From Clostridiales bacterium (GTDB taxonomy: Bacteria > Bacillota > Clostridia > Lachnospirales > Lachnospiraceae): a DNA stretch of 64,000 nucleotides. This document shows positions 26,419 to 30,572 of this stretch, piece by piece. The position numbers and the translations under genes were made by a program. The notes under the pieces are model-generated. The model was given only the letters and a program-made list of their open reading frames with translations, did no database searches and was not told where the DNA came from. The DNA is taken from contig JAJQIK010000011.1 in assembly GCA_021199255.1 (NCBI GenBank), positions 1 through 64,000 of the forward strand, read 5' to 3'. Every line of letters begins with the position of its first letter. Position 1 is the first letter of the stretch.

Positions 26419-27756
26419 CTACGGAGAATATATTACTTCCATAGTTGATACCGAGCCATCCGAGAATTGAGTGACTACAGTTATGATCCCACTACCCTCT
26501 TGATTTATTTCAAAGGTATCATTCTCGGCAAAATCTTGTACCATATATTGCTCACCCTCATCAGGCGTGACGACAATTCTATATTGTAAGCCCTCTCGTG
26601 GTGTTGATGCTATATGATAGCGAAACACACCCGTATATGATTCCGTATAGATCCCCCATGTCTGTTCAGGCATATTGTCTACTTTTTCATCATATGAACT
26701 GTAAAATAAATCATCGCCCTCATACTTCCCTTCATATACGAGTTCGCAAAGAAAATTTGTATACATTTCTACTCCTTTACAATTTAGATGCCCCGCATCA
26801 CGAAAGAACTCTGTTTTTTCTATCGGCAAATATTCCTCTTTAATCAAATTAAAATCGTAAAAATTAATATCATATTCGTTTGCTATCTCCACGATTTTTT
26901 CTCGATAATTATCATATGTATCTATAGAAAGCATCTGCAATTCATATATCGGAGAAACAATTAAGGTTATTTCAAGATTTTCCTTCTGGCAAAGCTCTAC
27001 AATTTTTCTCAAATATTCCTCTGCGTCTTCTGTCAAAAATATTTCATCTGATCTTCTTTCAGCCCCATATACTAGATTCGTAATTTCCCTATCAGTATAA
27101 TAATAACCCTTATCTTGAAAGATTACTACTCCCCCTTCATCATCTTCTTTGTAATTATATGTTAAAAAATCATTTGATTTCTTTTCATTATGCCGACTGA
27201 TCATATAACTATAATCAAATAAATATCTTCTATATCTGATAAAAGGAAGTACCGCATCAATTAAGTGCTCTTTTCCATTTTCATCCCAGATTGCCTGTAT
27301 TTTATTCAGCGAAAGCTTCGCATAATCTGTAGTTCTCCACATATTTTTAATACTACCATCCAATGAATAATTGCCCAAAATACCTGTCGACGGCACATAG
27401 TAAAGTTCTAAAAATACGCGTTTTAAATCATTCTCTTTCAAAGCTTCTCTCAATAAATAATATGACGATATAATTTGCTGCTTTGGTGTCGATAAATTGA
27501 AGTTACTTTCACCCGTAAACTCATCCATTATATTAGGATTCACATCACAATATATATGAGAAGAACCCAGAAAAAGATTGTCGATATTTTCTGATTTATA
27601 AAAATTATGCCATAAAATTCTGGACCATTGATCGTCTTGATAATAATTATACATAAATAGCTTATTTATGAGCGCTAACACCACTATCAGCAACAAAATA
27701 AAGGCTATTCCTCTTTTCACTTTAGAACTGGAAGTAAATAAATTCCGAAGCATCAT
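26419..27756 (-). CDS. Membrane-anchored SGNH/AlgX-like acyltransferase partner
   Basis: This is a 445-residue protein with one N-terminal membrane helix. The extracellular domain carries the SGNH-like block LFLGSSHIYCDVNP and a C-terminal catalytic D/H pair in RDAGHLNCKGVEMY, as in DltD/AlgJ/AlgX-type partners of MBOAT transferases. It probably transfers acyl groups onto a surface polymer together with the MBOAT protein coded directly upstream. The ATG at 27756 has GGAG at 7 nt; it overlaps the MBOAT stop by about 35 bp. AT-rich base use differs from the neighbours. Confidence 0.75.
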   Translation of the reverse strand: MMLRNLFTSSSKVKRGIAFILLLIVVLALINKLFMYNYYQDDQWSRILWHNFYKSENIDNLFLGSSHIYCDVNPNIMDEFTGESNFNLSTPKQQIISSYYLLREALKENDLKRVFLELYYVPSTGILGNYSLDGSIKNMWRTTDYAKLSLNKIQAIWDENGKEHLIDAVLPFIRYRRYLFDYSYMISRHNEKKSNDFLTYNYKEDDEGGVVIFQDKGYYYTDREITNLVYGAERRSDEIFLTEDAEEYLRKIVELCQKENLEITLIVSPIYELQMLSIDTYDNYREKIVEIANEYDINFYDFNLIKEEYLPIEKTEFFRDAGHLNCKGVEMYTNFLCELVYEGKYEGDDLFYSSYDEKVDNMPEQTWGIYTESYTGVFRYHIASTPREGLQYRIVVTPDEGEQYMVQDFAENDTFEINQEGSGIITVVTQFSDGSVSTMEVIYSP

Positions 27757-29230
27757 ACATTTCTCCATAACATCCAAACATGATTATTATTGCTATCAGA
27801 CAGCCAACTGCCACAGCCTGAATCACAATATTTTGGGAAAAGAATGATTCGATTATATTCTTTCCCTTATATTTGTAATAATCAATAATAAACAATACAA
27901 TAATTGCCGCCATCATTACTCTAAAATACTGGAGATCCACGCCAAGGCTAAAGATGGATTCGTCAAAGAAAATCCACCAATTTCGGCTCGACAAAACGCT
28001 CTTTATCATGTGCAACGCCTCTCTTGCACCACTTGCTCTAAAGAACAGCCACGTTGAACATACCAGTGAAAATGTGATCAAACGGCTTAATATCCTATTA
28101 GTAATTGTATCCTTAGCCTTAAATTCTTTGATGCCAAGTCTTGTTATAATCAATTGGAGCAACGTATCTCTAACATCAGCTATTACTTGATATAATCCAT
28201 TTAGAAATCCCCATGTAACATAGCTTATTCCAGCTCCATGCCATAGCCCGCTTAGAAGAAAAGTTATAATAAGATTAAAATTTTTCCTGATATGTCCCTT
28301 ACGATTTCCCCCTAACGGAATATATACATAATCCCGAAACCATCCAGACAATGAAATATGCCATCTTCTCCAAAATTCTTTCACACTTTTTGAATAATAC
28401 GGAGCATTGAAATTATCAACAAGCGTAATTCCCATTGTCAACGCTGCGCCGCGTGCTATTGTTGAATATCCGTAAAAGTCACAGTATATTTGAATTGCAA
28501 AAAAAGCTGTCGCAATCACAATATAAAATCCAGGATATGTCTCCCAATCCCCATATACTGTGTTAACAATAATTGCAACCCTGTCCGCTATTACCATTTT
28601 CAAAAACAGACCATATATTATGAGTACAAATCCACTGATAATATTTTCCAGCTTAAATTTTTGAAGAACATTTAGCTGTGCAAGCAAATTCTTTGAACGT
28701 TCTATTGGACCAGCAACCAATTGCGGAAAAAACGATACGAAAAGAGCATATCTAAGAAAATTTTTTTCTGCGTATATTTCTGCGCGATACACATCAATCG
28801 TATAACCTAATGCCTGAAAAATATAAAAAGATATACCAACTGGCAGCAATATATTTACCTCAGGCGTACTCACGCTTGCCCCGAATCTTCTGGCAACAGC
28901 ATAAATCACTCTGACAATAAGACCTGAATATTTAAAATATCCAAGAATTCCTAAGTTTATAATTAAGCTTACCGATAACCAAAATTTTTTATGGACAATT
29001 CTTTTTCTTTCATCCCATTCCTTATTTTTGATAATCTCCAATATTCTTCCACATATATATGTAACCAATGTAGAGGCAAATAGCAGAACTGCGTAAGCAG
29101 GGTTCCAACCCATGTAAAAATAATATGAACAAGCTAATAGCCATATATATCGCACCCTTTTGGGTATAATGTAATATACAATTAGTGCGATTGGAAAAAA
29201 CAATAAAAAATCAACCGAATTAAATAACAT
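27722..29230 (-). CDS. MBOAT-family O-acyltransferase (AlgI/DltB-like)
   Basis: This is a 502-residue polytopic membrane protein. It has the MBOAT landmarks FFPQLVAGPIERSKNLLAQL, FWRRWHISLSGWFRDYVYIP and the catalytic His in LSGLWHGAGISYV. Such proteins move acyl groups (often acetyl) across the membrane for O-acylation of exopolysaccharide or cell-wall polymers. It is the first gene of an operon with the SGNH/AlgX-like gene. The GGAG before its ATG would remain in the leader when the upstream invertible segment flips. Confidence 0.9.
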   Translation of the reverse strand: MLFNSVDFLLFFPIALIVYYIIPKRVRYIWLLACSYYFYMGWNPAYAVLLFASTLVTYICGRILEIIKNKEWDERKRIVHKKFWLSVSLIINLGILGYFKYSGLIVRVIYAVARRFGASVSTPEVNILLPVGISFYIFQALGYTIDVYRAEIYAEKNFLRYALFVSFFPQLVAGPIERSKNLLAQLNVLQKFKLENIISGFVLIIYGLFLKMVIADRVAIIVNTVYGDWETYPGFYIVIATAFFAIQIYCDFYGYSTIARGAALTMGITLVDNFNAPYYSKSVKEFWRRWHISLSGWFRDYVYIPLGGNRKGHIRKNFNLIITFLLSGLWHGAGISYVTWGFLNGLYQVIADVRDTLLQLIITRLGIKEFKAKDTITNRILSRLITFSLVCSTWLFFRASGAREALHMIKSVLSSRNWWIFFDESIFSLGVDLQYFRVMMAAIIVLFIIDYYKYKGKNIIESFFSQNIVIQAVAVGCLIAIIIMFGCYGEMYDASEFIYFQF

Positions 29231-29253
29231 TGTATCATTTCTCCGATTATATT

Positions 29254-29392
29254 AAAGTATACATTTTCGAAATGGCTTTTAAGCTTGCTGGGAAATTGTT
29301 TGAAAATATAAAAATGTTGAAAAATCAAAGATTTTTGTTATAATAGCTATCGTAGTTCTGTTCCATATTTCAAAATTGAAAATGTATACTTT
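29254..29392. repeat. Probable invertible promoter segment with 15-bp inverted repeats
   Basis: AAAGTATACATTTTC at 29254-29268 is repeated in exact inverted form at 29378-29392. The 109 bp between them contain one clear promoter. The left repeat ends 24 bp before the MBOAT start, and the right repeat lies 24 bp from the 3' end of a serine recombinase gene. Inverting the segment would aim the promoter at the acyltransferase operon with a leader of about 65 nt. This is the layout of a phase-variable promoter switch. Inversion itself cannot be seen in a single sequence. Confidence 0.8.
29317..29344 (+). promoter_or_regulatory. Promoter inside the invertible segment, facing away from the MBOAT operon
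   Basis: A -35 TTGAAA (29317-29322), a 16-bp spacer and a -10 TATAAT (29339-29344) with the extended TG one base upstream make a strong sigma-A promoter. The spacer holds a small dyad, AAAAATC-AAA-GATTTTT. In this orientation it transcribes rightwards, antisense to the recombinase gene. Confidence 0.8.
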
Positions 29393-29415
29393 TACAAATT
29401 TTAGATATTCTCTAT

Positions 29416-30015
29416 TTAATCGGCTTTTTCAAATTTTCTCGCTTTTCCATAAAAAGTTTGCGGCAGCATATCACACTGCTTTGCCGCTTCTTCCATACTT
29501 ATTTTCCCACTTCTCCAATCCTTATGTGCCTTGTGGAAATTGTCAGGTATGGGCAGTGGCGGTCTGCCAAACTTCACGCCCTTTGCTTTTGCGGCAGCAA
29601 TCCCTTCGGCTTGTCTTTGACGTATGTTAGCACGCTCATTCTCCGCCACGTAGCTCAGAAGTGCAAGCACAATATCGTCTATGAATGTCCCCAACAGATT
29701 TTTTTCCCGCCTTGTGTCAAGTATCGGCATATCAATCACGACTATATCTGCGCCCTTTTCTTTCGTAATAATGCGCCATTGCTCGTTTAGGTCGGCATAG
29801 TTGCGCCCCAACCTGTCAATGGATTTGACAAAGAGAACCGTATCCCTGCCAAGCTGCTGCAGGAGCTTCTTGTACTGCGGTCGCTCAAAATCCTTACCCG
29901 ACTGTTTGTCCATGTAAATATTCTGTTCGGGCACTCCCATTTCAAGCAGCGCTATCCTCTGCCTGTCCTCATTCTGCTCCTTTGTCGATACTCTCATGTA
30001 TCCGTATACTTTCAT
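29416..30015 (-). CDS. Serine recombinase (resolvase/invertase family)
   Basis: This is a 199-residue small serine recombinase. The N-terminal catalytic domain has nucleophile Ser10 in YGYMRVSTKEQ and the active-site segment VKSIDRLGRNYADL. The E-helix region LLSYVAENERANIRQRQAEG follows, then a short C-terminal HTH (ISMEEAAKQCDMLPQTFYGK). Size and layout fit Hin/Mpi-type invertases as well as plasmid or transposon resolvases. Position next to a perfect inverted repeat around a promoter suggests it is the invertase. AAAGGATAATCT precedes the ATG. Confidence 0.92.
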   Translation of the reverse strand: MKVYGYMRVSTKEQNEDRQRIALLEMGVPEQNIYMDKQSGKDFERPQYKKLLQQLGRDTVLFVKSIDRLGRNYADLNEQWRIITKEKGADIVVIDMPILDTRREKNLLGTFIDDIVLALLSYVAENERANIRQRQAEGIAAAKAKGVKFGRPPLPIPDNFHKAHKDWRSGKISMEEAAKQCDMLPQTFYGKARKFEKAD

Positions 30016-30059
30016 AGATTATCCTTTCCGCCGCACCCTGCTATTCTCCGTCAAAGACA

Positions 30060-30087
30060 TAAAAATACCCACTGTTGATACAATGGG
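30060..30087 (-). terminator. Terminator-like hairpin upstream of the recombinase gene
   Basis: On the minus strand CCCATTG pairs with CAGTGGG (one G-U) around a 6-nt loop and is followed by TATTTTTATG. It lies about 50 bp before the recombinase ATG and may limit readthrough into that gene. Confidence 0.5.
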
Positions 30088-30572
30088 CATAATCAATACG
30101 ACAAATCCTTTTTTCCGCTACTTATCTGCATTTTTTATTTTCTCAAACGTTTCCTGTTCTTCCGCCAGATTTTTTCAGCTTTCAATAACCAGCACATAAT
30201 TTTGGCACAGAATAGTTTTAGACTATTAAAATTGATAATTGTTTCTATCTCATACCATGTAAATGGCGCCATATTCTCTCCTGAAATTTCTGATGCTCAA
30301 CTAAAAGAAAGCGGTAAGTATCCTCTGTAAAGAAATACCTATCGCTCTCAGTTTATGTATTACATTATTGATAAGCAACTGACGTTCTTCTGCCAAATTG
30401 TGTATTACACAGTTATGCGCTCTACCCCTGCTTTCTTTCTCCTCGACCATTCCTGCCGTCCGCATTTTTCGTTCTGTAACCAATATCATTTCCCATATGT
30501 TTTCAAACAGAACAATTGCTTTTCAGGTTTGCCTTTTGGCAGGCTGTTTTAGCTGCGTTCACTCCTCGCTCC
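30088..30572. other. AT-rich intergenic stretch without a supported gene
   Basis: The 485 bp between the recombinase leader and the BlaR1-like gene have no ORF with a ribosome site and recognisable protein. A minus-strand ORF of 62 codons (30301-30489) has no supporting feature. A short dyad AATAGT-TTTAG-ACTATT lies near 30207. The stretch may mark the edge of the accessory block. Confidence 0.4.

Follow-up and report, generated by a model that had tools for sequence, protein, structure and literature searches.

Several described systems resemble parts of the locus analysed here. Mpi of Bacteroides fragilis shares with it a serine recombinase, inverted repeats, a promoter within the repeat-bounded segment and a presumed surface-polymer target, but PMC5903667 describes Mpi as a master enzyme of at least thirteen regions, whereas the present recombinase adjoins its own segment. 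The Hin and Gin invertases (Salmonella, phage Mu) have in common with it a small serine recombinase. Hin is encoded within its own segment (PMC5903667) and employs an enhancer that is bound by Fis and lies about 100 bp away from one of the hix sites (PMC3798978), whereas here the gene lies outside the segment and the two sites are 127 bp apart. Invertons that read mapping has found in gut Clostridia (PMC11892184, PMC5903667) are likewise short segments near surface or chemotaxis genes. In PMC11892184 the most significant inverton-invertase link, in a Clostridia group, concerned a tyrosine-type recombinase, and its main text contains none of the terms serine, GTATAC, GTGTAC and resolvase.

The genes behind our segment resemble a second group of systems, PatA/PatB, DltB/DltX/DltD and AlgI/AlgX, in which an MBOAT protein with a conserved His and a C-terminal Tyr motif stands beside an SGNH-like protein. 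PMC12148441 describes MBOAT-SGNH systems as passing the acyl group via an invariant Tyr of the C-terminal hexapeptide and as requiring a conserved His. The literature searched, to which most subscription journals were external, gave no report of these pairs or of any MBOAT-SGNH operon under an invertible promoter, no description of the serine-recombinase cassette presented below and no helical phasing of natural invertons.

The DNA under study is a stretch of 64 kb from a gut bacterium with a genome of Lachnospiraceae type, hereafter the window. With a probability of roughly 0.88, we interpret one part of it as a self-contained phase-variation cassette with an invertible promoter for an MBOAT-SGNH operon.

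Anatomy of the locus

The features of the locus, with their basis in brackets, are listed by position in the window:

26419–27777, minus strand: SGNH/DltD-like partner, 452 aa from a TTG start (invariant columns; DltD matches below cut-off)
27722–29230, minus strand: MBOAT O-acyltransferase, 502 aa, DltB-like, ending in FIYFQF (PF03062, E 6.8e-30; DltB structures)
29240–29244, minus strand: ribosome-binding site GGAGA of the MBOAT gene, outside the invertible segment (sequence)
29247–29272, no strand: predicted 26-bp recombination dyad, MBOAT side (site matrix from 70 loci; extent predicted)
29254–29268, plus strand: left inverted-repeat arm AAAGTATACATTTTC, MBOAT side (sequence and resampling)
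29317–29344, plus strand: promoter TTGAAA-16-TG(t)TATAAT (promoter scan; 11 of 12 matches plus TG)
29374–29399, no strand: predicted 26-bp recombination dyad, recombinase side (site matrix from 70 loci; extent predicted)
29378–29392, minus strand: right inverted-repeat arm, recombinase side, exact reverse complement of the left arm (sequence and resampling)
29416–30015, minus strand: small serine recombinase, 199 aa, presumed invertase of the segment (PF00239, E 4.3e-30; PDB matches; residues)

The arms are perfect, 15 bp each with 109 bp between them, and form the sole perfect inverted repeat of at least 15 bp with a 50–300 nt spacer in the window. No such repeat occurred in 20 Markov-1 resamples of the whole window, and one or more occurred in 0.1% of 2,000 resamples of the local 3 kb. 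The MBOAT start codon at 29230 lies 23 bases left of the left arm, and there are likewise 23 bases between the right arm and the recombinase stop codon, which ends at 29416. Inverted repeats around a promoter, the arrangement that defines an inverton, are therefore present. This promoter was the best of five promoter-like sites in 29150–30200, a region whose shuffles averaged 3.2, and in the assembled orientation it points away from the MBOAT gene (OFF), with the 3' end of the recombinase ahead of it. The minus strand between recombinase and MBOAT showed no promoter-like site at the scan threshold. Reflection of the coordinates (58646 − x), computed by hand, would place the −10 element of the inverted state at 29307–29302 on the minus strand, with a start near 29295 and a leader of about 65 nt.

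A sequence-only reading of this DNA had described the 15-bp repeats 109 bp apart, one strong promoter pointing right and away from MBOAT, a serine recombinase gene beside the segment, an MBOAT ribosome site outside it and, after a flip, a promoter about 65 nt before the MBOAT start. The sequence and resampling bear out the repeats, the scan the promoter, the Pfam match, catalytic residues and position the recombinase, the GGAGA at 29244–29240 the ribosome site and the reflected coordinates the leader. Its coordinates and distances were correct to within one base (24 bp claimed, 23 bases found).

The MBOAT and recombinase genes are co-directional and no terminator was found between them, so that read-through could leak into the operon in the OFF state. 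A terminator flipping together with the promoter was considered and rejected, as the segment holds no terminator-like hairpin of note in either orientation. The promoter also overlaps a small palindrome, AAAAATC-AAA-GATTTTT at 29320–29336, which may be an operator or a product of chance.

The recombinase

The PF00239 match of the recombinase was above the cut-off, and its closest PDB matches were Bin3/Sin, followed by the resolvases of gamma-delta and Tn3 as well as two DNA-invertases. Residues 4–189 align to one DNA-invertase structure, 3uj3, which we take to be Gin; for a C-terminal HTH there was no Pfam HTH match at E 0.001. The enzyme has R8, S10, R45, D67, R68 and R71, whose roles we assume to be those of their counterparts in gamma-delta resolvase. 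Across 239 aligned recombinases these residues were conserved in 236 (R8), 237 (S10, the other two being gaps), 239 (R45), 234 (D67), 238 (R68) and 239 (R71) sequences.

The earlier comparison with Mpi did not carry over to the enzyme, which scored 49.4 bits against the NCBIfam Mpi family (PRK13413.1) where the cut-off is 272 bits, and which gave no sign of many-site action. A role as master recombinase was not supported: beyond its own two copies the 15-bp site has no further exact copies in the genome, and inexact copies with up to two mismatches numbered 20 (one with one mismatch, 19 with two) compared to 16 for a reversed control pattern. A terminator-like hairpin with a T tail occupies 30065–30090 on the minus strand, just upstream of the recombinase start, and could attenuate or insulate recombinase expression.

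The MBOAT-SGNH operon and a proposed mechanism

The MBOAT protein matched D-alanyltransferase/DltB (teichoic acid) structures at E 2.6e-24 and has H331 within GLWHG in addition to its FIYFQF end. By our reading, these probably correspond to the conserved His and the C-terminal Tyr hexapeptide of PMC12148441. The SGNH-like gene overlaps the MBOAT gene by 56 bp, and its product has G71, S73, H74, D327 and H330 among the invariant columns of 21 aligned sequences; S73, D327 and H330 are candidates for the Ser-Asp-His set of an SGNH enzyme. DltD models matched it below their curated cut-offs, and by Pfam it is not AlgX. Thus from the earlier suggestion of an MBOAT plus SGNH/AlgX pair the MBOAT part was confirmed by PF03062, while the AlgX part was not, the partner being DltD-like below cut-offs.

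Taken together, these parts would form the following switch. The serine recombinase would bind the two dyad sites of about 26 bp, which lie 127 bp (approximately 12 helical turns) from centre to centre, the bound sites would pair through a very short loop, and the enzyme would cut at the central dinucleotide and invert the segment. In the assembled orientation the sole strong promoter faces the 3' end of the recombinase gene and none was found for the MBOAT-SGNH operon, which would be OFF; the inverted segment would let transcription begin some 65 nt ahead of MBOAT (ON). In that state the MBOAT protein would charge its own C-terminal Tyr with an acyl group, which the SGNH partner would hand on to a surface polymer. 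Flipping in the window strain, its effect on transcription, the acyl chemistry and the polymer are predicted from sequence. The locus makes it possible to test directly whether a common gut family switches polymer acylation on and off.

Linkage of recombinase and segment in related genomes

A search of genome contigs gave 334 related stretches from 360 candidates, of which 80 were kept. Counting hits at E ≤ 1e-40 for the genus and E ≤ 1e-60 for the family and class, the recombinase was present, own genome included, in 38 of 77 genus, 102 of 397 family and 43 of 391 class genomes. Regions were fetched for a subset of all matches (59 from the genus list and 60 from the family and class lists, plus loci from searches). 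Including the window, 294 hits spanning at least 131 residues gave 239 unique loci, and removal of 13 with a searched stretch under 200 nt left 226.

A motif-free inverted repeat (score ≥12) was found just downstream of the recombinase in 122 of these 226 loci, window included, in comparison to 11 of 784 control stretches (460 nt, same loci); the other 104 loci had none beside the recombinase. With a score of ≥11 required, 120/226 loci had a pair built on a GT(A/G)TAC-like core. Longer flanks were available for 75 of 119 loci that lacked a core pair, and a wider search gave a pair in only three. A site matrix was built from 70 loci, those left when three with other cores were dropped from the 73 core-repeat loci in the first set. 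It detected pairs in 81 of 126 loci, a sample that includes the 70 training loci, against 1/742 controls and 0/630 shuffles.

Over the 70 loci the arms are halves of a dyad of about 26 bp, of the form TTYGAAAAAGT(A/G)TACTTTTTC, around GT(A/G)TAC. A dyad with a 2-bp centre is the usual look of a serine recombinase site and, we presume, resembles hix. By this matrix, the window repeats have the form of crossover sites, a dyad of about 26 bp with a shared 2-bp core. The central dinucleotide was AT in 23 loci and GT in 47, and it was equal in both copies in 70/70, an agreement largely built in as the loci were chosen by core-containing repeats. The window has AT at 29259–29260 and at 29386–29387; a core that is self-complementary, as this one is, cannot by itself impose inversion rather than deletion. 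The recombinase-segment-cargo layout that had been proposed as a switch on this one locus recurs in relatives, and the locus is a copy of a dedicated type of cassette that many Clostridia share. Jiang et al. 2019, reportedly the first inverton survey on a large scale, may list some of these segments.

Two variants of the layout were observed. Loci L335 and L011 each have a recombinase gene on either side of one segment, the two genes facing one another. In L176, L177 and L179 the recombinases are 56–57% identical to that of the window and the repeats, of another form (containing TACACTTCGGCG or TACACTTTGGCG), surround promoters TTGACA-17-TATAAT.

Cargo genes and other MBOAT loci

Cargo was defined as the first co-directional gene that codes for 90 aa or more and lies no further than 420 nt away, and was found in 62 of the 73 first-set loci, window included. 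A Pfam scan of 52 cargo genes, with 10 near-duplicates left out, showed among the matches listed (25 of 51 families) zinc-ribbon (5), flagellin (4), acyltransferase-3 (3) and MBOAT (3, window included) proteins, in addition to S-layer, leucine-rich-repeat, glycosyltransferase, methylase and chemotaxis proteins.

Six loci have an MBOAT gene behind the segment, namely the window, L311/L359, L165/L114, L272/L360, L032/L273 and L042, in the last as the second gene after a putative adenylation-enzyme gene (read from its N-terminus). Each of the six MBOAT proteins has the C-terminus F(I/V)Y(F/N)xF, and the promoter score placed L272 and L311 ON and the other four OFF. The gene after MBOAT is in L359 a homologue of the window SGNH protein (30%, E 6e-47) with no Pfam hit and in L360 a match to ALGX (PF16822), while in L165 and L032 it had no Pfam hit at E 0.01. 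The placing of a switch in front of an MBOAT operon, as the sequence-only reading had it, is therefore not confined to the window, and once it recurs with a homologue of the same SGNH partner. In-frame stops interrupt the recombinase match in L273, where the match aligned to residue 195, and in genome G439 (L311/L359), where a 167-aa frame is left; from this, at least the G439 switch may be locked.

It is important to note that 29 further loci with MBOAT homologues among the matches listed (tblastn, 49–56%) had no site pair upstream in the stretch searched (mostly 500 nt; 104 nt in L228), so the switch does not look ancestral to this MBOAT; the L311 MBOAT (54%) does have an upstream site pair.

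Spacing of the sites and position of the promoter

Distances between site centres clustered at 114–118, 124–129, 134–139, 145–149, 153–160, 165–167 and 176–179 bp, with further values of 207, 209 and 228 bp. Overall, 113 of 120 distances, kin loci included, deviated from a multiple of 10.5 bp by no more than a quarter turn, where 50% are expected to do so, and the mean phase was +0.17 bp. The vector length for all loci was 0.63 at 10.5 bp and 0.70 at the best period of 10.1 bp. Since a straight fit gave 10.0 bp per turn and the 16–17-turn classes fall 1.5–1.9 bp short of the 10.5-bp multiples, the period is near, and not exactly, 10.5 bp. As a control, the distance from recombinase stop to first site centre gave a vector length of 0.25 at 10.5 bp and at most 0.30.

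This pattern could alternatively reflect shared ancestry of a few length classes, with helical quantisation arising without any synapsis constraint. Kin often do share a length, which makes the length test weaker, as 28 of 60 disjoint close-relative pairs differed by 0–1 bp, and with one locus per cluster the vector lengths at 75% (0.67, 15 clusters; null mean 0.41, maximum 0.78) and 70% identity (0.81, 7 clusters; null mean 0.59, maximum 0.98) lie inside the null range. At 90% (83 clusters), however, the value was 0.69, when none of 2,000 jittered null sets exceeded 0.37, and at 80% (41 clusters) it was still 0.66 against a maximum of 0.50 in 2,000. Furthermore, when 31 of the 60 disjoint pairs with changes under 4 bp and three with changes over 60 bp were dropped, the remaining 26 favoured whole turns (p ~0.0006 at 10.5 bp); in a looser test, where nearest pairs could overlap, p was 0.007 (51 of 95 pairs differing by at least 4 bp). 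Ancestry as the sole source of the pattern is accordingly somewhat unlikely in our view. A constraint on pairing can be understood if the loop is too short for free twist, in which case both sites would have to face the same side of the helix.

The promoter is also positioned with regularity. Among strong, clearly directed promoters, 60 of 79 have the end of the −10 element 36–43 nt before the next site centre and seven others have it at 30 nt; over all segments, 69/120 have the 36–43 nt position, compared to 6% of shuffled segments. In the window this distance is 42 nt. The promoter thus may sit where polymerase just clears the bound recombinase. Both features, site spacing near whole helical turns and a promoter ending about 40 nt before a site centre, look new.

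These regularities incline us, with some reserve, to a wider interpretation, namely a widespread, portable Clostridia module that would consist of a dedicated serine invertase, perhaps without a remote enhancer, sites set whole turns apart (mostly 11–17) and a promoter kept roughly 40 nt away from one of the sites, just far enough for RNA polymerase to clear the bound recombinase, and that would have been placed repeatedly before unrelated cargo including MBOAT-SGNH. The length rule makes serine-invertase pairing over very short DNA testable by insertions of a few bases, and together with the site motif and layout it could make many such switches findable in Clostridia from sequence alone.

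Inverted segments in relatives and alternative explanations

Homologous segments occur in both orientations among relatives. The segments of L017 and L021 are exact reverse complements with 120 nt on each side 100% identical (flanks of 100 nt, used in the pairwise comparison, were also 100%), and this was the only inverted pair with identical flanks. L019, L020 and L022 were merged with L021, being identical to it over a stretch that begins within the recombinase and ends 60 nt after the stop codon. Further inverted pairs were L148/L163 (segment 98%, flanks 77 and 82%), L345/L281 (97%, flanks 92 and 53%, the latter on the cargo side) and L062/L079 (94%, flanks 90 and 80%), with weaker pairs L166/L167, L148/L158 and L017/L018 at 79%. 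Compared without inversion, the inverted pairs were 54–65% alike. In all, 16 of 54 pairs of clearly similar segments were inverted, which does not amount to 16 events, as eight involve L148 and two are a contig against itself. A simple promoter score with a margin of 1.5 called 63 of 120 segments OFF, 28 ON and 29 undecided.

The comparison of segment orientation across related genomes, suggested with the original reading, has thus found both states and supports an invertible switch. The exact window locus is represented by one assembly, and for this reason we infer flipping in the window strain from its relatives. That single known orientation is also what a switch of a genuine family, left in the window strain as a frozen OFF relic, would display, and the MBOAT-SGNH relative G439, its recombinase cut short by a stop, offers a precedent. 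The window copy, however, has perfect repeats, a length in one of the main classes and the catalytic residues, and we regard a relic as improbable. Much less credible again is a resolvase system in which the repeats would serve as accessory (res-like) sites for the excision or resolution of a mobile element: resolvases (Bin3/Sin, gamma-delta and Tn3) are indeed among the nearest solved relatives of the enzyme, but the window sites are inverted and not direct, and relatives carry the segment inverted between identical flanks. Lastly, MBOAT might be regulated in an ordinary way, with the repeats acting as binding sites or RNA structure beside an unrelated recombinase. Nearly palindromic sites in one genome alone would have allowed this, but it is barely tenable given that recombinase and sites are linked in 120 of the 226 eligible loci, whose cargo belongs to many unrelated families. 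A phase-variation cassette is accordingly the reading that we retain.

Loci L017 and L019–L022 have identical or nearly identical recombinases and flanks across differently named genomes, which suggests recent horizontal transfer or misbinned contigs.

Further searches and a second switch in the same genome

A DNA search with a 190-bp region matched 17 of 299 family genomes, own genome included, the other matches being 23–100 bp long, and plasmid records gave no match. Contig breaks at the segment were too weak as a signal, with 14/136 contigs ending within 250 bp downstream and 6/136 beginning within 250 bp upstream of the recombinase.

Besides the window recombinase, the own genome has two paralogues at 63–64% and two far weaker matches. 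No site pair was found for paralogue L086. Paralogue L087 has a related 16-bp pair 1.55 kb downstream with site centres 159 bp apart, which marks a second switch of the same site type (L087 7508–7672, contig G000:C54); an AAA_14/DUF4143 gene stands between it and the recombinase, and an 862-aa protein without a Pfam hit is its likely target.
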